Source: Pseudomonas syringae
GTDB taxonomy: Bacteria > Pseudomonadota > Gammaproteobacteria > Pseudomonadales > Pseudomonadaceae
NCBI RefSeq assembly: GCF_023278085.1
Contig: NZ_CP066265.1
Coordinates: 3,738,001-3,802,000, forward strand
Reading direction: 5' to 3'
Length of the DNA stretch: 64,000 nucleotides
In this document: piece after piece, positions 9,255 to 26,782 of the stretch
Position numbering within the stretch: position 1 is the stretch's first letter
How the letters are laid out: every line of letters begins with the position of its first letter
Notes under the pieces: model-generated
Databases searched by the model: none
What the model was told of the DNA's origin: nothing
What the model saw: only the letters and a program-made list of their open reading frames with translations
Made by a program: the position numbers and the translations under genes

Positions 9255-9878
9255 CTAATTCACCTGATGAAGCAAGGTGACGCCTGGACGGTCGTCAATA
9301 ACTGTCTGAGCACGAGAACGCAGCTCACTGCAACGAGCCTCTACAGCCCGGAGCCGGTCGACAAACTCGGGTAGCTTTTCGAGGTCATCAATGTCGATCC
9401 GACCGTCCTCGAGGATCTCGCTACCGAGTTGCACTGTTGCCCCCAGGCGAGCCACCAATTGCCCGAACACACCGACGGGATTCCCGTCACCGTTCAATTC
9501 ACGCGCTCCCGTCAGACCGTGTCGGCTGGCCAGCTCGTTGATGCAGCGCTCTTGATGATCAGCGTCCAGAGAAAGAACCCATGATTCTTCAATCCAGCTC
9601 GGCAGATCGACCTCCCCGCTCAACCAACGGCCTAACCGGCGTAGCCAGGCTCCGGAGGCTTTCAAGAAAGCGACGGTGTCGTTTCCCTGGGCAAGCAGGG
9701 TGAAATCGGGAACGTCCTTGCTAACCGCTTTCTCAGGGACCAGGGAATGTAGCTGTACGCTCAATGACTGCGCAAAGTCGTCTTGGCTGAAACCAGTGCG
9801 CGCAATCATCTCTGCGGCGTGGGCCACAAGCACCTGATCCCGCGAGACCAATAGCTGTCCGGAGTTGGACATAGTCAC
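9255..9878 (-). CDS. Unknown prophage early/regulatory protein
   Basis: 207 residues, not recognised. It sits between the Cro-like gene and the RepA-like gene in one operon. Its GTG start (9878) overlaps the cro stop as GTGA, an alternative ATG being at 9872. It is acidic, with DVPDFTLLAQGNDTVAFLKASGAWLRRLGRWL in two helices, LPSWIEESWVLSLD, and a C-terminal helix-rich stretch with FVDRLRAVEARCSELRSRAQ that could form a coiled coil. Its place directly after cro and before the initiator is that of a CII-type regulator or replication accessory gene in temperate phages. That is context, not homology. Confidence 0.55.
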   Translation of the reverse strand: MTMSNSGQLLVSRDQVLVAHAAEMIARTGFSQDDFAQSLSVQLHSLVPEKAVSKDVPDFTLLAQGNDTVAFLKASGAWLRRLGRWLSGEVDLPSWIEESWVLSLDADHQERCINELASRHGLTGARELNGDGNPVGVFGQLVARLGATVQLGSEILEDGRIDIDDLEKLPEFVDRLRAVEARCSELRSRAQTVIDDRPGVTLLHQVN

Positions 9879-10099
9879 AGGAGCCTGCTGGCTTTAGCCT
9901 GCACGACGTTCACCGCTTTGTGATGCGGGAATGGGCGAAGCTCGTGCGCGGAGTAGGTACCGTCATCGTTGACTGTGACCATGATCTGACGCCCTAAACG
10001 GATCGCCTTGTGCACTGCTGCAGGGCTGATACCGAACGCTTCAGCAACCGATGCCTGACCGATCTTGGCGACCAGATCGGGCAATGGGATTTGATTCAT
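9875..10099 (-). CDS. Cro-like DNA-binding repressor
   Basis: 74 residues, the usual size of phage Cro proteins. The helix-turn-helix is VAKIGQASVAEAFGISPAAV (residues 10-29), followed by HKAIRLGRQIMVTVNDDG, which would be the turn and beta strand. It is divergent from the S24-type repressor gene, with the four palindromic operators (10131-10233) in between, as in lambda and P22 immunity regions. Its operon continues into the unknown gene and the RepA-like gene, so Cro would govern the early replicative transcript. Ribosome binding site (AGAGAG) is weak. Confidence 0.75.
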   Translation of the reverse strand: MNQIPLPDLVAKIGQASVAEAFGISPAAVHKAIRLGRQIMVTVNDDGTYSAHELRPFPHHKAVNVVQAKASRLL

Positions 10100-10130
10100 G
10101 GCAGAACTCTCTGACTGGATGTCTAAATGT

Positions 10131-10233
10131 TAACCTCCGGTAATTTTTTAAACAAGACGAAAGTAACCTTAGGTATCCATAAAAACGGAGAAGACGAACC
10201 CGCAGGTAATCTTTTTAGATTAACCTCCGGTTT
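10131..10233. promoter_or_regulatory. Repressor operator cluster between cro and cI (four copies)
   Basis: The motif TWACC-N3-GGTWA occurs as TAACCTCCGGTAA (10131-10143), TAACCTTAGGTAT (10164-10176), a half-degenerate AACCCGCAGGTAA (10197-10209) and TAACCTCCGGTTT (10221-10233). The first three starts are spaced 33 bases apart, about three helical turns, so the protein would bind one face of the DNA. Lying between divergent cro and cI genes, these are the expected OR-type operators. The same motif recurs at 12129-12186. Confidence 0.8.
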
Positions 10234-10246
10234 ATCATTGCCTCCT

Positions 10247-10966
10247 ATGACCAAAAAGCCCCCTCTCCCCCCCAAGCTATTAGCCGAATGCCAAGCGGCG
10301 AACGCCCTGTACCTGTCAAAAAAAAATGAGCTGAAGCTCAACAAAAGAAAGATAGCGGACGAGATAGGCGTCAGTCCTGCTGCAGTGGCGCACTACCTCA
10401 GCGGGACCAACGCATTGAATGCTAGGTTTGCATCCGCCCTGGCGAGGCTGTTAGGTGAACCAGTTGATCGGTTTAGTCCGCGCCTGGCAGCGGAGATTGC
10501 AGATCTGGCAGCTACGACCGATCACAGCAACGTGACCCCTATGGTGCAGCCTCGAAGGGAAGCGAAGGACTACCCACTTATTACTTGGGTTGACGCAGGC
10601 GCTGGGATTGAATCGGCGGGGGCCTATCCCTTGGGGATCGCTGATGAGTGGCTCAGCTCCACCGAGAATGCGGGGCCGAGTGGCTACTGGTTGAGGGTGA
10701 AGGGCAAGTCGATGACATCTGATACCCCGCCTACCTTCCCCGAAGGTACGCCCATCCTGATCCGGCCTGAAGGATTCGATATCATCAGCGGGAAATTCTA
10801 CATTGCCCGCCACACCGCTACAGGTGATACGACTTTCAAACAGTACATTTTGGACGCAGGTGTTGGTTACCTTGTGCCACTGAATCAGGCTTACCAAACC
10901 GTGCAGCTTGAGGGTAATTGGGAAATTATTGGCCGCGCCATAGATGCCAAAATCACAGGTATGTAA
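10247..10966 (+). CDS. CI-like phage repressor with S24 (LexA-type) autoprotease domain
   Basis: 239 residues from the ATG at 10247. The N-terminal HTH (NKRKIADEIGVSPAAVAHYL, about 32-51) binds DNA; the C-terminal half is an S24 peptidase with a self-cleavage dipeptide Ala117-Gly118 (WVDAGAG), nucleophile Ser155 (VKGKSM) and general base Lys198 (TTFKQY). All residues needed for RecA-stimulated cleavage are present, so induction by SOS is plausible. An in-frame ATG at 10127 would add 40 residues, but that stretch is the operator cluster, so I reject it. No Shine-Dalgarno sequence precedes 10247; a leaderless message, as for lambda cI, is possible. Downstream genes converge on it. Confidence 0.85.
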   Translation: MTKKPPLPPKLLAECQAANALYLSKKNELKLNKRKIADEIGVSPAAVAHYLSGTNALNARFASALARLLGEPVDRFSPRLAAEIADLAATTDHSNVTPMVQPRREAKDYPLITWVDAGAGIESAGAYPLGIADEWLSSTENAGPSGYWLRVKGKSMTSDTPPTFPEGTPILIRPEGFDIISGKFYIARHTATGDTTFKQYILDAGVGYLVPLNQAYQTVQLEGNWEIIGRAIDAKITGM

Positions 10967-10992
10967 CGGCCTATTCATACTCACTTAGACTG

Positions 10993-11244
10993 TCATGAGG
11001 AGCCCGGTGGCGTGCTATGCACAACAATGTGACCCTTGCCGATCCTGAAGTTCTTCATTACTGCAATGGCGACATTCCAAACTTCTTTGGCCACCTCTTC
11101 TCCAGCTTCAACGACGTTGCCTTCGTCATCGATGATAGCTAAACGTGCTGGCCTGCCATCGGTTGTCGTTAACTTGTATCCTGTCGTTACGTTGGCACTG
11201 ACACATCCTTTGGCCAAAGTACCTGTTTTTGGAATACCAATCAT
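10993..11244 (-). CDS. Small unknown prophage protein, last gene of a three-gene operon
   Basis: 83 residues beginning MIGIPKTGTLAKGC; function not recognised. The ATG at 11244 is chosen because a strong AGGAGGGG lies nine bases upstream and it overlaps the stop of the preceding gene as TAATG. The longer frame to 11337 lacks support. The product looks beta-rich (YKLTTTDGRPARLAIIDDEGNVV), then has a helix (EEVAKEVWNVAIAVMKNF). It ends 26 bases from the convergent end of the repressor gene. Confidence 0.65.
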   Translation of the reverse strand: MIGIPKTGTLAKGCVSANVTTGYKLTTTDGRPARLAIIDDEGNVVEAGEEVAKEVWNVAIAVMKNFRIGKGHIVVHSTPPGSS

Positions 11245-11489
11245 TAGTGTACCCCTCCTACTCGAATATCTGCGTATTGATTCACGATAAGAGCAATCGT
11301 GCTTGCGTGCATTGTGCGCAGTCCTTGCATTCCACAAATGGCCCCCCAGTCCCCGCTGCCAACAGCATCATCAAGAGCAACGTTTGCAACTCGATATCCT
11401 TCGATGCTGTCTACAAGCAATTTAAGAGTGCTAGGCTCGGTGATATTAATCTTTAGATTCATACCGTTTTCGTTTGGCGGAACATTCAT
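11244..11489 (-). CDS. Small unknown prophage protein, middle gene of a three-gene operon
   Basis: 81 residues starting MNVPPNENGMNLKIN. An AGGAAAGG sequence precedes the ATG at 11489 at normal distance. The stop is shared with the next start (TAATG), implying coupled expression in fixed ratio. No family was recognised. The protein has one hydrophobic helix-like stretch (TMHASTIALIVNQYAD) but no clear membrane segment. It begins 13 bases after the preceding gene ends. Confidence 0.65.
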   Translation of the reverse strand: MNVPPNENGMNLKINITEPSTLKLLVDSIEGYRVANVALDDAVGSGDWGAICGMQGLRTMHASTIALIVNQYADIRVGGVH

Positions 11490-11502
11490 CTACCTTTCCT
11501 CA

Positions 11503-12072
11503 TCAGCTTTTGTAATTACTGATAAATTCTCTAGTGCAGCCAATCAGCAATTGAAAAGCCAAGTCACTTGAGCGAGGAAGATGCATCGGTAAAGTCAGCG
11601 ACACGCCGCTCAACACAAATCGAAAATTTGGCCGCTTATAGCCCTGTAACGCCCCTTCAATCACGAGATACAAATCAGCTAGTTCAGCAGATGGGATTAG
11701 ATAGGAGCCGTGCTTCATTACGATAGCAATTCTTATTGTCCACTCCAGATCACATTGAGCATGCAGAATCACATCCGGACCTGGCGATTTTTCGACGTCT
11801 GAATTGACATGGTCTTCCATGACTTGAGTAATACGCTCTGGCGTTGCGCTGCTGCACGGGATAGCAACGGTTGTCGTTCGTCCAGCCATGGTCATCCAGA
11901 CGTGCCATTCCGACGAGCCTGGAATCACCATGAGTTGTGCGACGTCCATAACTTGGTCATAGGTGTCGTTAAGCGGATAGGCACAGACGAAGCCTGCCCT
12001 ACGTTGCTGGCTATTATCCAGCTGCACGATTAGGTGGGATCTTGCTTCCGAGGAAAGGGTTACCAGGTGCAT
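11503..12072 (-). CDS. Unknown prophage protein, first gene of a three-gene operon
   Basis: 189 residues, starting MHLVTLSSEARSHLIVQLD. Not recognised; mixed alpha/beta composition, no signal peptide or membrane helix visible. GGAG lies nine bases before the ATG at 12072. The only upstream intergenic sequence is the 117-base interval holding three near-perfect copies of the repressor operator motif, so expression in the lysogen is probably under the prophage repressor. Together with two small coupled genes downstream it forms a unit that converges on cI. Base composition is more AT-rich than the neighbouring host genes. Confidence 0.6.
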   Translation of the reverse strand: MHLVTLSSEARSHLIVQLDNSQQRRAGFVCAYPLNDTYDQVMDVAQLMVIPGSSEWHVWMTMAGRTTTVAIPCSSATPERITQVMEDHVNSDVEKSPGPDVILHAQCDLEWTIRIAIVMKHGSYLIPSAELADLYLVIEGALQGYKRPNFRFVLSGVSLTLPMHLPRSSDLAFQLLIGCTREFISNYKS

Positions 12073-12128
12073 CTTTAATCTCCGCTTTGATCGCTGCAGC
12101 GCCTGGCGCTGAACTGATGAGCGTAGAT

Positions 12129-12186
12129 TAACCTCAGGTAACGCAAATAAGCAATACCGCAGGTTACTTTTATTAACCTGCGGTAA
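12129..12186. promoter_or_regulatory. Second repressor operator cluster, upstream of the three-gene operon
   Basis: Three copies of TWACC-N3-GGTWA: TAACCTCAGGTAA (12129-12141), ATACCGCAGGTTA (12154-12166) and TAACCTGCGGTAA (12174-12186). They match the motif between cro and cI better than those sites match each other. The cluster sits 57 bases upstream of the minus-strand gene at 12072 and directly after the stop of the DUF1654-like gene, in the position of a promoter. Confidence 0.75.
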
Positions 12187-12189
12187 ACG

Positions 12190-12447
12190 TCAGCTCGGGT
12201 GCTGATTCGTCCATTTCAGTCGTGCGACTCCGCGTTCAACGCGGGTGACACGTACGCTTTCTTCAAGCTCCAGTTGCTCCAGGAACACGTCCCAGTCTGA
12301 CGCGCTCTCATCGGGTTGCTTGGCTATGGTTGTATGTCGGGTGTTTTGGGAAGCAGGACTATTGATCTGTCGGTAGATGCGCCTAAGCAGCCTTTGAAAG
12401 GGCGTGGACGGCTGGCGAGCGACACCTATAGGGACTTCCTGCAGCAT
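12190..12447 (-). CDS. DUF1654-like small protein, probably SOS-regulated
   Basis: 85 residues from the ATG at 12447 (MLQEVPIGVARQ), with TGGAGT before it. The pattern PFQRLLRRIYRQINSPASQ, then AKQPDESASDWDVFLEQLE, then VERGVARLKW resembles the small pseudomonad domain DUF1654 as I remember it. A LexA box (12466-12481) lies 18 bases upstream of the start, so transcription should rise after DNA damage. Genes in this setting in other temperate phages can be antirepressors (for example Tum of phage 186), but no such activity can be read from this sequence. The gene follows the recombinase and precedes the second operator cluster. Confidence 0.7.
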   Translation of the reverse strand: MLQEVPIGVARQPSTPFQRLLRRIYRQINSPASQNTRHTTIAKQPDESASDWDVFLEQLELEESVRVTRVERGVARLKWTNQHPS

Positions 12448-12510: not shown

Positions 12511-14130
12511 TCAGTCCCAATCCTCACTAGCGACCCAGGCACCTGTCTTACGGTTGATTTGCAAAAGCCTGTGTTGCCCCGTACGGGACAGCAACTGAAC
12601 ATCAATGAATTTGCTGGACCTGTCCTCTGCACCCATCCCGCGCATGAATACAACGATTCTTTCAAATGTATCCATCACGAGTTGCCGTACTTTCTCCCTG
12701 GAAGGATAATCTCCAGCGCGGACGAGTTCTGCCAGTTCAACCCAGCGATCTGCTTGAGCCGGCTTACCGGATCCGGACACAGCGGCAAGCTCATATTCGA
12801 GTTGCTGCACCCTTTTGAGCGCCTCGGCCTGCTCTGCTTCAAGCTCACGAGCCCTTCGAATGAAAGAGGTCGGAGCAGCACCACTTTCATCGGCAAGAAG
12901 AGCGTCCGTAATTTTGCCTAGCTGAACAGCATGCTTTTCAGCTGCCATTCTCGCTACAGCAAGTTGTTTGCGAACGCCTTGCCCTTCGTCTCCAACCTTC
13001 ATAAGGCGTTGCAGATTTATTTGATCAGAGCAAAACGTAAGGATCGCATTCTCAACAGGTACGACACTGCAAGACCCTCCAGCGCTACAGCCACCGTTTA
13101 CGCCATAGGAAACACAGTGGAGCCTGCGGTGCCCGTCAGAAATCGTGCCGTCGGCCTTCATGCGGGTCATCATGTTTTGACCCACGAGCGCCGTGCCGCA
13201 GTAACCACAATAGGTAATGCCGATACCTGTAATAATCCCAGGTATCTCACCATGTCCACGTCGGCGCAGGCGCTGACCAGCTAGGTGCTGAAGGTCTGCC
13301 CACTCTTCCTCGGAAAGCAGCCGAGGATAATAGTCTTCCAGCACAAACTCCTCGCCATCTATTGATAAGCTTTTAGCTCCTCTGAGCGCCTGCAGTTTGA
13401 TCAAACGATAGATGTGTTGTTTCGTTATCCCAGCTTTTGCGTAGTCCAGCCCTTCCTGATGCAATATCCGCGTTGCACGCGCTGCCCCCATCCCCTCCTG
13501 ATACAGCTCTAATGCGCGACGAACAGTCAGGACCCGCTCAGGGATCATTTCCCAGGCGCTGCCTGTCCATGTCAGCCACTGGGGATCCTTGCCATTGCGG
13601 ATCAGCCCCCTATATATACCGGCTTGCCAGCCTTGGCATAGCCGAATTATTGAGGCTTTCACGCGCTTACTCTTGGTATCCGATTCTTCGTGCGCCCGGA
13701 TCATTACGAGCAACGAATAAACTAGGTCCATAGGTTGCGCTTTCAACCCGGCACGGTTGTACTCTTTCCCGTCACTAGCCGTGACGACTGTGATGCCGGC
13801 ATTAATTATCTGGGCGAGTTGAGCCTGGGCTTGGATCGGCTCTGCGCGACTCAGGCGGTCCAAGCCTTCAACAACAAGAACTGATCCTGATGCGATGCGT
13901 CCGTCCTCGATCGCTCTGAGGAAAACGCCGAGGGCACCCTGCGTCACGTGCCGTTGGTGGTAAGCTGACAAACCCTCGTCCCGCATGGATAAGGATTCGT
14001 CCAACGACAATCCCTTATCTGCTGCCCAGCGTTGCGCATATTGCAACTGACGATCGGCGCTGCCACCAGATCCTTGCCGTGGGTCTGAGAAGCGAAGGTA
14101 GCTATACACTCGAGCTTCAAAATCAGTCAT
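12511..14130 (-). CDS. Large serine recombinase (prophage integrase)
   Basis: 539 residues from the ATG at 14130. The N-terminal resolvase domain begins VYSYLRFSDPRQGSGGSADRQ with catalytic Ser15. It is followed by a recombinase domain (about 175-290), a zinc ribbon with CGYCG and later Cys residues (about 305-345), and a coiled coil (about 385-460). This is the layout of phage-type serine integrases, which catalyse site-specific integration between attP and attB, with a directionality factor for excision. P2 itself uses a tyrosine integrase. Position near the right prophage border fits integrase function. A GTG at 14142 is an alternative start. Confidence 0.9.
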   Translation of the reverse strand: MTDFEARVYSYLRFSDPRQGSGGSADRQLQYAQRWAADKGLSLDESLSMRDEGLSAYHQRHVTQGALGVFLRAIEDGRIASGSVLVVEGLDRLSRAEPIQAQAQLAQIINAGITVVTASDGKEYNRAGLKAQPMDLVYSLLVMIRAHEESDTKSKRVKASIIRLCQGWQAGIYRGLIRNGKDPQWLTWTGSAWEMIPERVLTVRRALELYQEGMGAARATRILHQEGLDYAKAGITKQHIYRLIKLQALRGAKSLSIDGEEFVLEDYYPRLLSEEEWADLQHLAGQRLRRRGHGEIPGIITGIGITYCGYCGTALVGQNMMTRMKADGTISDGHRRLHCVSYGVNGGCSAGGSCSVVPVENAILTFCSDQINLQRLMKVGDEGQGVRKQLAVARMAAEKHAVQLGKITDALLADESGAAPTSFIRRARELEAEQAEALKRVQQLEYELAAVSGSGKPAQADRWVELAELVRAGDYPSREKVRQLVMDTFERIVVFMRGMGAEDRSSKFIDVQLLSRTGQHRLLQINRKTGAWVASEDWD

Positions 14131-14216
14131 TACAGCAACCACCCCAGAAGATTATGCTTTCAAGCACGGACAATCCCTCTTACTAGGAAGCTATTAATAA
14201 TTGAAATCATCGCTTA

Positions 14217-15275
14217 TTACTCTTGCTTTTCTTTTTTCATGGCTAAGTCCTTCACCCGATCAAGAACACTTCCTACAGATTCGAACATCTGTACCATATG
14301 ATTTACATCAGTAGATTTTAGCGCATTGAGTTCAGGCCAGCGAACGCTCTCCTCGAGTACTTTCAACATGAGTGCCCTAGCTTCAGCTTTCGCTGACTCT
14401 TGATCTCCAGAAAACTGCGCTATCGTATGGTAAGAAAGTAAATACCGGTCAAAGGTAGACTTTACCCTCATAAATTGCATGGATGAATCATTGAAATTGC
14501 GGTACTGCTTTAAAAACCAAGCAGCTAAAAACTCGACCACCAGAAACGTCAGCGAGCATGAAACCACTCCAAAAATCAGCGATCGATCTACACCCCAGAT
14601 GTGCGCTACAAGTTGCCACACAAAAATAGAACTTACATAAAAATAGATTCCACGACGGAGATACATAGTACCTGTATCAAGTAAACGAGAAGCTTTTTTA
14701 TCAGAAAGATCAATGTGTTGCTCTAGAGATTTTATTACACCAAGTATATGAGACTCAACCGGGTTAACTGAAGGCTTTGTAGGCTCATCTGTATCTTGCG
14801 TGAATGAAGCAGCATATCTTTCACGAAGCGCTTTATCAACAACCATCTTGTTTGACACAAACAGCTTTAGCTTTTCCATCTCATCATACAATTCTTTATT
14901 TTTTGATTTTTCATAATCAATATCTATAAAGCCTCTATCCGTGAGCCTACTTCTTTTCGACATATCTGCAGCAATTCGAGTCAACAAATAAACAAAACCA
15001 ATCAACAATACAAAAAGCGTTACAGCCCTATTCGGATTTATAGAGTGTATCTTGTCCAATATTTCAACTACCAAGTCCGCATAAATATCAGACGGTACCA
15101 ACAAAAGAACAACACTAAAAAAACCCGCAATCGTTGCTATCATCAAACTTATAAAGGGTATCTCCTTTGGTGCTCGACTTACCCATCTATAGACCGGGCT
15201 TTTTGGGTGTTTCTTAAAATCGCCAATTGACGACCCCTCTACGGGCTTATTTTGCTGAAGGTCATCTATTAGCAT
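14217..15275 (-). CDS. AT-rich four-helix membrane protein of unknown function at the prophage edge
   Basis: 352 residues from the ATG at 15275, which has AGGGA before it. Four likely membrane helices form two pairs, about residues 40-60 and 84-103, then two between about 205 and 260. A charged central domain of roughly 100 residues and a charged C-terminal tail (ending MKKEKQE) lie outside the membrane, probably in the cytoplasm. Base composition is distinctly AT-rich compared with both phage structural and host genes, a sign of recent transfer. It lies between the integrase and rimO, a common site for phage-borne accessory genes. No family was recognised; exclusion or defence is possible but not shown. 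Confidence 0.7.
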   Translation of the reverse strand: MLIDDLQQNKPVEGSSIGDFKKHPKSPVYRWVSRAPKEIPFISLMIATIAGFFSVVLLLVPSDIYADLVVEILDKIHSINPNRAVTLFVLLIGFVYLLTRIAADMSKRSRLTDRGFIDIDYEKSKNKELYDEMEKLKLFVSNKMVVDKALRERYAASFTQDTDEPTKPSVNPVESHILGVIKSLEQHIDLSDKKASRLLDTGTMYLRRGIYFYVSSIFVWQLVAHIWGVDRSLIFGVVSCSLTFLVVEFLAAWFLKQYRNFNDSSMQFMRVKSTFDRYLLSYHTIAQFSGDQESAKAEARALMLKVLEESVRWPELNALKSTDVNHMVQMFESVGSVLDRVKDLAMKKEKQE

Positions 15276-15293
15276 GATCAATCCCTGAAAGAT

Positions 15294-25720: not shown

Positions 25721-26782
25721 TCAGATATCGGCGTCGGCTTCAGCCACATCATCGGCAACAACTGCTTCACGAGAGCCAACAGCCTTGGTGTCGACGCCAG
25801 GGGTGAGCAACTTGTCGCGAATCTGCTTCTCAAGCGCTTTGCAGATTTCCGGGTTGTCCGCCAGGAACTTGGCCGAGTTGGCTTTACCCTGACCGATCTT
25901 GCTGCCCTGGTAGCTGTACCAGGCACCGGATTTCTCGACAAAGCCATGCAGAACGGCCAGGTCGACGATTTCACCATTCAGGTAGATACCCTTGCCATAA
26001 AGAATCTGGAACTCTGCCTGACGGAACGGCGGAGCCACCTTGTTCTTCACGACCTTGACGCGGGTCTCGCTGCCGACAACTTCGTCGCCCTCTTTCACAG
26101 CGCCGGTGCGACGAATGTCCAGACGTACCGAAGCATAGAATTTCAGCGCGTTACCACCGGTAGTGGTTTCCGGGCTACCGAACATCACACCGATCTTCAT
26201 GCGGATCTGGTTGATGAAGATGACCAGGCAATTGGCGTTCTTGATGTTACCGGTGATCTTGCGCAGTGCCTGCGACATCAGACGTGCCTGCAGACCCACG
26301 TGCATGTCACCCATCTCGCCTTCGATCTCGGCCTTCGGCACCAGCGCGGCGACGGAGTCGACAACGATGACGTCGATGGCATTGGAACGCACCAGCATGT
26401 CGGTGATTTCCAGCGCCTGCTCGCCGGTATCCGGCTGCGAAACCAGCAGGTCGTCGACGTTGACGCCCAGCTTGCCGGCGTATTCCGGATCAAGTGCGTG
26501 CTCGGCATCGACGAATGCGCAGGTGGCGCCCATTTTCTGGGCTTGTGCGATGACCGACAGGGTCAGCGTGGTTTTACCGGAAGACTCTGGACCGTAGATT
26601 TCAACGATCCGGCCTTTTGGCAGACCGCCGATACCGAGTGCGATATCCAGACCCAGCGAACCGGTGGAGATGGCAGGGATCGCCTGGCGATCGTGGTCGC
26701 CCATGCGCATCACGGCACCTTTACCGAACTGACGCTCGATCTGACCCAAGGCCGCAGCCAAGGCTTTCTTCTTGTTGTCGTC
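25721..26782 (-). CDS. recA: Recombinase RecA
   Basis: 353 residues from the ATG at 26782 ([20 protein letters not shown]). It forms filaments on single-stranded DNA, drives homologous recombination, and stimulates self-cleavage of LexA and of S24-type phage repressors. Walker [18 protein letters not shown]-type loop ([11 protein letters not shown]) and the L2 loop [14 protein letters not shown] are intact. A LexA box lies 53 bases upstream. It links the prophage repressor described here to host SOS signals. Confidence 0.99.

Follow-up and report, generated by a model that had tools for sequence, protein, structure and literature searches.

In phage lambda, one operator cluster separates cI from cro, another stands beyond cI, over a promoter that points away from it, and lambda CI loops between the two regions (OR and OL). 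Hall et al. 2005 reportedly found that Cro recognition helices correlate with operator half-sites. Phage P2, for its part, carries a P2-type C repressor and a tyrosine integrase.

In phiKO2/N15 the prophage repressor binds OR plus OL sites, and OL controls repA, a unit that is not found in lambda (PMC4997575). The locus described here likewise has putative repressor sites at a second place over a non-lambda unit, although OL governs plasmid replication in those phages and the unit in our phage is a putative early operon. Burkholderia phage JC1 has a related serine integrase (57%), integrates at the 5' end of rimO (PMC9144972), and encodes a homologue of the gene that we call MIG (after MIGIPKTG) as the last gene ahead of the integrase. 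However, JC1 is a podovirus with RecT-like and nuclease genes in its repressor-to-integrase operon (PMC9144972), and an operator cluster of the kind reported below is absent from the JC1 stretch that was scanned. The scanned stretches of phages Hali, CF183a, and MR13 hold no pair of such sites at one mismatch or fewer.

The window, i.e., the whole 64-kb stretch of DNA analysed, contains a P2-like Pseudomonas prophage with a lambda-type CI and Cro, which adjoins rimO. Its PHROG matches include the terminase subunits, portal, scaffold, major head, and head-tail adaptor, and such capsid and packaging genes stand in P2 order; in place of the C repressor and tyrosine integrase of P2, however, this phage has a lambda-type CI and a serine integrase. 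We refer to the operator cluster between cro and cI as O1 and to the one beyond cI as O2, behind which lies a unit of three genes. The genes are as follows:
9875 to 10099, minus strand: cro (PF09048, E 2.8e-21; lambda Cro by sequence, E 2.2e-11)
10247 to 10966, plus strand: cI, lambda-type repressor with HTH and S24 domains (PF00717, PF01381; lambda repressor over 2-233, E 6.4e-36)
10993 to 11244, minus strand: MIG, last gene of the O2 unit
11244 to 11489, minus strand: 81-aa gene, second of the O2 unit
11503 to 12072, minus strand: ORF1, first gene of the O2 unit
12190 to 12447, minus strand: DUF1654 gene, upstream of O2 (PF07867, phrog_2707)
12511 to 14133, minus strand: large serine integrase (PF00239, PF07508, phrog_95; start codon tentative)

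CI is homologous to lambda CI over its full length, and its residues A117, G118, S155, and K198, aligned with those of lambda, are invariant in 13 relatives. We take A117-G118 to be the Ala-Gly cleavage site and S155/K198 to be the Ser/Lys pair of self-cleaving repressors, and self-cleavage of CI is probable. A terminator-like hairpin inside cI (minus strand, 10340-10327) was rejected because its sequence is not conserved among the relatives' cI codons, four of the 38 displaying another stretch in that comparison.

A motif scan with TWACCN3GGTWA located these sites, to which no strand is assigned:
10131 to 10143: O1 site, exact
10164 to 10176: O1 site, one mismatch
10197 to 10209: O1 site, weak, two mismatches
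10221 to 10233: O1 site, one mismatch, directly upstream of cI
12129 to 12141: O2 site, exact
12154 to 12166: O2 site, one mismatch
12174 to 12186: O2 site, exact

This rescan confirmed the two clusters of the original prediction (10131-10233 and 12129-12186), which had also stated, correctly, that nothing comparable lies elsewhere in the window: outside both clusters the 64 kb hold no exact match and only four isolated one-mismatch matches, at 26151, 30532, 49949, and 58765. The sites are spaced by 33, 33, and 24 bases in O1 and by 25 and 20 in O2. The predicted run of three O1 sites 33 bases apart is thus present in the window, with the site at 10197 weak, but it is not a general rule, and we dropped it as a signature since several relatives show spacings of 24 and 24. 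In the host's own genome (5.6 Mb), the exact motif occurs at six places, three of them within O1 and O2, and matches with at most one mismatch occur at 177 places vs. 350 for a reversed control, so single sites are background. The two-site pattern finds O1, O2, and two unrelated pairs (reversed control, three), while three sites with at most one mismatch per 58 bases would be expected about 0.0003 times per genome at the genome-wide rate. The earlier concern that the motif might be common in the host therefore holds for single sites and fails for clusters. A lone exact site, at 1196064, lies 1.6 kb away from another S24 protein.

For comparison we assembled 106 records and kept 52, among the matches listed, in which CI showed 60% identity or more across a span exceeding 150 residues and the integrase or DUF1654 gene was present. 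The excluded records were L120-L159 (40 lambdoid loci, analysed separately), L061-L068, L079, and L080 (CI identity low or partial), and L086, L087, L110, and L117 (integrase or DUF1654 not found). The first copy per distinct CI among the matches listed gave 38 loci, referred to below as the 38 listed loci; longer copies stood in for L030, L031, L033, and L035-L037, which were outside the 106 records. As in lambda, the window and its relatives have an operator cluster between cI and cro and the same operator again beyond cI, with about 1.7 to 6.1 kb from the first site of O1 to the first of O2 across the relatives. In the 38 listed loci the operator is of one of two types, TAACC or TAGCC (A or G), the same in O1 and O2. 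Own-type sites with at most one mismatch reach 15.7/kb in O1 and 12.8/kb in O2, the latter about 85 times the background of 0.15/kb in the remaining 474 kb (the window's share of this count being its first 18 kb), and those 474 kb contain no site pairs 13-60 bases apart. A single background pair, 61 bases apart, was noted in L034. At least one own-type site (one mismatch or fewer) is present in O2 of 52/52 listed loci; at least two sites within two mismatches are present in 31 of the 38, the other seven having a single clear site. Three O1 regions (L058, L075, and L119) have no sites at one mismatch or fewer.

The operator type tracks residue 46 in the recognition helix of CI (Ala in 14/14, Ser in 24/24) and matches the Cro recognition-helix residue (Ala or Ser) in 37 of the 38 listed loci. 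Sites of the other type number none in O2 and one in O1 (L116); when four base types were allowed, the O2 of L096 was best read as C, and L100 was tied. We counted type changes on the best of the quick trees built for neighbouring and intervening genes, and found 9 for the C-terminal part of CI, 10 for CII, 8 each for integrase, MIG, the 81-aa gene, and DUF1654, and 1 for Cro, with both clusters changing each time. All supported independent pairs agree (CI C-terminal part 4/4, CII 5/5, integrase 7/7, Cro 1/1, MIG 2/2, 81-aa gene 3/3, DUF1654 3/3), and the integrase tree, the sole one with enough supported pairs to test, gives p 0.016. As in Hall et al. 2005, half-sites follow the Cro helices, whereas in the present series the change involves CI as well as Cro and affects two clusters that lie far apart. 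Because the types of O1 and O2 change jointly with the CI and Cro helices, O2 is very probably a CI/Cro operator, and the predicted control of a second unit by the repressor or Cro is strongly supported at the sequence level. The 38 listed prophages thus form a natural series in which one CI residue, one Cro residue, and one operator base pair at two clusters co-vary, and since they do so in several separate lineages, repressor specificity switching is directly testable in them.

Two probable promoters were read from the sequence:
10127 to 10155, minus strand: probable cro promoter, -35 TTGTTT (10150-10155), 17-base spacer, -10 TAACAT (10127-10132)
12125 to 12154, minus strand: probable O2 promoter, -35 TTGCTT (12149-12154), 18-base spacer, -10 TAATCT (12125-12130)

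Their spacers contain the sites at 10131 and 12129, respectively; a generic promoter scan reported neither. A direction score for the O2 promoter was leftward in 30 of the 38 listed loci, rightward in 5, and tied in 3, the window among the ties. It is probable that O2 overlaps a leftward promoter built like that of cro and aimed at cI; the second promoter of lambda points away from cI, whereas here the minus-strand genes from ORF1 to MIG occupy the interval from O2 to cI in 38/38 loci.

We consider it highly probable that O1 and O2 together make up the operator pair of a single lambda-type switch, for which we infer binding, repression, promoter direction, timing, and SOS control as follows. 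In the lysogen, CI on O1 and O2 would block two leftward sigma-70 promoters, each with an operator in its spacer, so that one repressor system appears to keep two separate promoters off in this prophage. Inactivation of CI, probably by SOS-type self-cleavage, would let both fire, the O1 promoter producing cro and a CII-like gene and the O2 promoter ORF1, the 81-aa gene, and MIG, running toward the 3' end of cI; Cro probably recognises the same sites as CI. O2 would then be the OL/pL equivalent, turned toward cI, ahead of an early operon that is conserved but carries variable insertions. As the switch DNA at both promoters changes in step with the repressor, the second gene set is most likely part of the decision between the dormant and active states.

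The agreement of the clusters might instead reflect linkage, with cro-O1-cI-O2 as one travelling block whose transfer gives O2 the donor's type, even if O2 is non-functional. The short distance between the clusters and the single change on the Cro tree would fit this reading, which we nevertheless regard as very unlikely: the best trees of MIG and the 81-aa gene, both situated between the clusters, require as many changes as those of genes outside them (few branches being well supported), and the site density of O2 is about 85 times background. A terminator or roadblock for integrase-DUF1654 transcripts, formed by the inverted O2 sites in place of a promoter operator, seems most improbable. 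A scan of the minus strand does give, at 12185-12155, a hairpin of 12 pairs followed by a T-rich tail, but it reported two hairpins against a shuffle mean of 2.4, and in many relatives there is no second inverted site at this distance.

Other readings accept O2 as an operator and differ on its use. That it serves mainly for looping, with CI oligomers bridging O1 and O2 and so adjusting cI and cro, and with control of the ORF1 operon secondary, would suit a CI that is lambda-type throughout and the presence, in every listed relative, of two clusters separated by a few kb. The original prediction had likewise offered looping between the clusters as an alternative. We consider a main role in looping unlikely, as an operator in the spacer of a probable promoter before a conserved operon would be superfluous for looping alone, and as seven loci offer only one clear O2 site; looping and repression can coexist. 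Somewhat less unlikely is the reading, toward which we do not lean, that only one of Cro and CI uses O2. In phiKO2, three OR and two OL sites are bound by the prophage repressor but OR3 alone by Cro (PMC4997575). Against this, the helices of both CI and Cro follow the operator type here, though selection at O1 alone could explain that.

Returning to the two-operator switch, the locus shares with lambda OR/OL its lambda-type CI and Cro, an operator cluster in the cI-cro interval, and another one past cI that overlies a probable promoter. Differences are that the second promoter probably faces cI, that the genes behind O2 resemble no known gene in the libraries searched, and that the phage combines a P2-like capsid block with a serine integrase. 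The lambdoid Pseudomonas prophages L120-L159 have a related CI DNA-binding domain and an A-type operator at two places, 31 of 33 distinct loci having a further pair of sites past cI, and therefore the plan is that of lambda OR/OL, not a new circuit. They differ in that eight inspected sequences have a TTGAC-17-TTAA(C/T)T promoter directed away from cI, while a crude direction score over 31 loci favours the other strand in 19 and the away-from-cI strand in 4, with 8 ties. Our search of the open-access literature found no published account of such O2 regulation.

The leader of ORF1 (12073 to 12128, minus strand) adds a possible second level of control, as its GGAG (12080-12083) is predicted to pair with 12120-12128. 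In 38/38 predicted folds the partner of the ORF1 ribosome site is a stretch close to the -10 box, which precedes the expected start (near 12118 in the window), and GGAG is paired 4/4 in 27 folds and 3/4 in 11. The GGAG pairing probability is 0.91 vs. 0.74 for shuffles, and 0.51 from the expected start site; the cro leader control, with 0.77, 0.61, and 0.65 in the same order, shows a milder effect. The window's own leader has a weak signal (z -1.16), the predicted stem being stronger in relatives such as L093, and RNAalifold predicted zero pairs on the 38-leader alignment. Per-sequence SD complementarity was set aside in favour of these probabilities, being mostly no better than shuffles and having several start codons wrong. 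In T4 gene e and I-TevI, the promoter region encodes the 5' strand of an SD-masking stem; only read-through RNA therefore carries that strand, and read-through mRNA is silenced (PMC3014915). The predicted ORF1 masking strand similarly lies near a -10 box, but T4 offers late promoters and experiment, and ours is a prediction at a repressor-controlled early promoter. Tentatively, then, O2 may be a doubly locked pL in inverted orientation, with a CI/Cro early promoter aimed at the cI 3' end whose -10/+1 region encodes the SD-masking strand. Integrase-DUF1654 read-through would be silent, protein would come only from repressor-free initiation, and RNA running antisense into cI could reinforce the lytic choice. 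If the leader prediction is true, a temperate phage would have a T4-like lock on read-through translation of an early operon.

Homologues of ORF1 (172-197 aa) lie behind O2 in 38/38 listed relatives and those of MIG, also found in JC1 and LPPA36, in 38/38, with a tblastn match to the 81-aa gene in 34/38. The unit is therefore a conserved operon with variable insertions, and the original label of "accessory" was half right, fitting the variable genes inserted between ORF1 and MIG but not these two. Family searches found none for MIG or the 81-aa gene, and the window ORF1 protein has no family in Pfam, NCBIfam, or PADLOC, no PHROGs match, and zero tblastn matches among phages. Its structure model (mean pLDDT 87) gave no PDB match at E<=0.001 and one unconvincing viral match (5.8e-4, TM-score 0.23); the MIG model (pLDDT 53) was unusable. 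This unannotated operon, beside rimO in many Pseudomonas prophages, is most likely tied to the lysis-lysogeny switch, and its function can therefore be sought in early lytic growth. Among ORF1 relatives, 7/13 match phrog_15582 and 7/13 phrog_29828, both annotated as unknown function. A protein of about 333 aa, for which the L030 copy found no family and which resembles a membrane protein by its look alone, occurs in 11 of the 38 listed loci.

The Pseudomonas prophage in this window carries capsid genes with profile matches, which we take to be P2-like and in the P2 gene order, and encodes a Cro (PF09048 match), a CI repressor with an S24 domain that aligns with the lambda repressor over residues 2-233, a CII-like protein, a DUF1654 protein and a large serine integrase. 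It adjoins rimO, and its integrase is 57% identical to that of Burkholderia phage JC1, whose integration site is the 5' end of rimO (PMC9144972). Among the matches listed, rimO was matched in 25 of 52 related loci, on the far side of the integrase. It lies directly behind the integrase in several relatives; a 354-codon ORF without family match (14217-15281, minus strand) separates the two in the window, and L060 has a 358-codon ORF at that place. The switch region is arranged as follows:

cro, minus strand
10131-10233, O1, operator cluster between cro and cI
cI, plus strand
10993-11244, minus strand, MIG, named after MIGIPKTG
11244-11489, minus strand, 81-aa gene
11503-12072, minus strand, ORF1
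12073-12128, minus strand, ORF1 leader
12129-12186, O2, second operator cluster
DUF1654 gene, minus strand
integrase gene, minus strand

The original prediction had placed a palindromic motif, TWACC-N3-GGTWA, in both clusters, and our window scan bears this out, with exact sites at 10131, 12129 and 12174, one-mismatch sites at 10164, 10221 and 12154, and a two-mismatch site at 10197. Whether the motif is common in the host depends on what is counted. Single sites with at most one mismatch are common in the 5.6-Mb genome (177, vs. 350 for the reversed control motif), so that a lone site carries no meaning; the exact motif occurs at six places only, three of them inside O1 and O2, and three such sites within 58 bases are expected by chance about 0.0003 times per genome. 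The clusters are better founded than a reading of the sequence alone could know. A single exact match elsewhere in this genome (G000:C1:1196064) lies 1.6 kb from a second S24 repressor-like gene (1197651-1198241), whose product shares 37% identity with CI across the aligned region.

Relatives were gathered by scanning viral contigs and genomes with CI, and all counts from them are among the matches listed. Requiring a close CI together with an integrase or DUF1654 gene left 52 loci, holding 38 distinct CI proteins; all 12 named relatives are Pseudomonas. O2 contains at least one site of its own type with at most one mismatch in 52/52 loci, and at least two sites within two mismatches in 31 of the 38 distinct loci, the other seven (L057, L096, L097, L102, L104, L118, and L119) having a single one. 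O1 contains at least two such sites in all 38, the best being no better than two mismatches in L058, L075, and L119. Between the end of cI and the O2 side lie 0.96 to 5.4 kb, depending on the locus. An ORF1 homolog of 172-197 aa, in a single blastp cluster, starts behind O2 in 38/38 loci; MIG is likewise present in 38/38, and a protein of ~333 aa in 11/38. In JC1 a MIG homolog closes the run of genes from repressor to integrase, and in LPPA36 one closes a long run of leftward genes; both placements agree with MIG ending a pL-like operon.

Two operator types occur among these relatives, TWACC...GGTWA (A-type) and TWGCC...GGCWA (G-type). Among the matches listed, O1 is A-type in 14/38 loci and G-type in 24/38, and those 14 loci have an A-type O2 as well; in the remaining 24 the best O2 score is G in 22, C in L096 and a C/G/T tie in L100, owing to a third site. 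Opposite-type sites with at most one mismatch are absent from every O2 cluster and occur in one O1, that of L116. CI residue 46, aligned with lambda Gly46, tracks the operator type (Ala in 14/14 A-type, Ser in 24/24 G-type), and Cro carries the matching Ala/Ser change in 37 of 38 loci, the exception again being L116. Here a Ser-type CI (SPPSVA) is found alongside an Ala-type Cro (SPPAI), and O1 contains sites of both types; L116 is an intermediate locus that may have been caught midway through a change of specificity. The helix-to-half-site code itself is not new, the relation between Cro helices and half-sites having reportedly been described earlier by Hall et al. in 2005. From this co-variation we infer binding at O2, and the first half of the original interpretation, that the repressor (or Cro) controls a second transcription unit, was very probably right; O1 and O2 may also loop together.

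The shared type could also reflect transfer of the whole region as one block. We compared quick trees (SH-aLRT support only, with many type-change branches poorly supported), and the type changes needed, followed by the well-supported independent pairs, numbered 9 and 4 for the part of CI that follows the helix, 10 and 5 for CII, 8 and 7 for the integrase, 8 and 2 for MIG, 8 and 3 for the 81-aa gene, 8 and 3 for DUF1654, and 1 and 1 for Cro. O1 and O2 yield identical change numbers on every tree and change jointly in each well-supported pair on all seven; the integrase tree alone has enough pairs for a test (7/7, p 0.016). The genes between the clusters have best trees that differ from the history of the operators, which makes block transfer an unconvincing explanation on its own.

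Read from the sequence, the probable cro promoter is TTGTTT-17-TAACAT and the probable O2 promoter TTGCTT-18-TAATCT, both leftward with an operator in the spacer; a better O2 candidate, TTGACA-17-TAATTT, is present in L091-L094, L096, and L116. A generic promoter scan of the window reported neither the cro nor the O2 promoter. A crude direction score at O2 favored leftward in 30/38 loci and rightward in 5/38, with 3/38 ties including the window (among the matches listed). A separate lambdoid Pseudomonas prophage group (L120-L159; 40 loci, 33 distinct, among the matches listed) has A-type sites at O1 in 33/33 distinct loci and a second A-type pair 1.3-4.8 kb beyond cI in 31/33. The CI DNA-binding domain of this group is related to that of the window, mostly on a protein of 286-299 aa with its later part unmatched. 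In the eight sequences inspected, TTGAC-17-TTAA(C/T)T is aimed away from cI, like lambda pL; this direction rests on reading the conserved hexamers, because the crude score mostly disagrees (opposite strand 19/31, away-from-cI strand 4/31, ties 8/31, among the matches listed). If both promoter readings hold, the pL of the window family would be turned towards cI.

In predicted folds from O2 site 1 to the ORF1 start, the ribosome-site GGAG is fully paired in 27/38 leaders and in three of four bases in 11/38 (among the matches listed); the partner of its first G falls at leader positions 3-10, downstream of the -10 box and ahead of the expected start. The base preceding GGAG and its partner are G-C in 17, A-T in 13 and G-T in 4, with misfits A-C in 2, A-A in 1 and C-C in 1 (Fisher p 0.0001, a value that ignores relatedness and takes its register from the folds, favoring fits); neighboring leader positions fit less (29/38, 28/36, and 25/36). 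Mean GGAG pairing over the whole leader is 0.91; shuffling the upstream bases lowers it to 0.74, and starting the RNA at the expected site to 0.51, a setting in which only 5/38 leaders have 0.3 or less. Dinucleotide-shuffle z values run from -1.6 to -6.0 over 20 chosen leaders, 15 of them at -2 or below; the window leader has -1.16. The cro leaders, used as a control, also show some effect (pairing 0.77, shuffled 0.61, cut 0.65), and the raw leader alignment gave no predicted pairs with RNAalifold. In the predicted folds the SD-masking strand comes from the -10/+1 region of the ORF1 promoter, a design that resembles T4 gene e; the long early RNA of gene e is silenced and the promoter-proximal RNA translated (PMC3014915). 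A similar lock against read-through translation of ORF1 is a tentative reading, and a somewhat doubtful one.

The O1/O2 system is a variant of the lambda switch, new as a variant and not a new kind of system. In the lysogen, CI would most likely keep both promoters off; its inactivation, probably by SOS-type cleavage (13 relatives share the same residues at the cleavage site and the same catalytic residues), would release both, and Cro would later damp them. Gene position suggests an early lytic role for ORF1 and MIG; take-over or counter-defense would be a guess from position, and a PADLOC search of the window genes found no family. Directly behind cI and on the same strand, L034 (6748-7386, plus strand) and five other loci carry a BRCT-domain gene (weak PADLOC match PDC-S48), possibly a lysogen-expressed cargo gene. 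One relative, L059, has a gene for an Arc-like DNA-binding protein (10487-10789, plus strand) inserted between MIG and cI.
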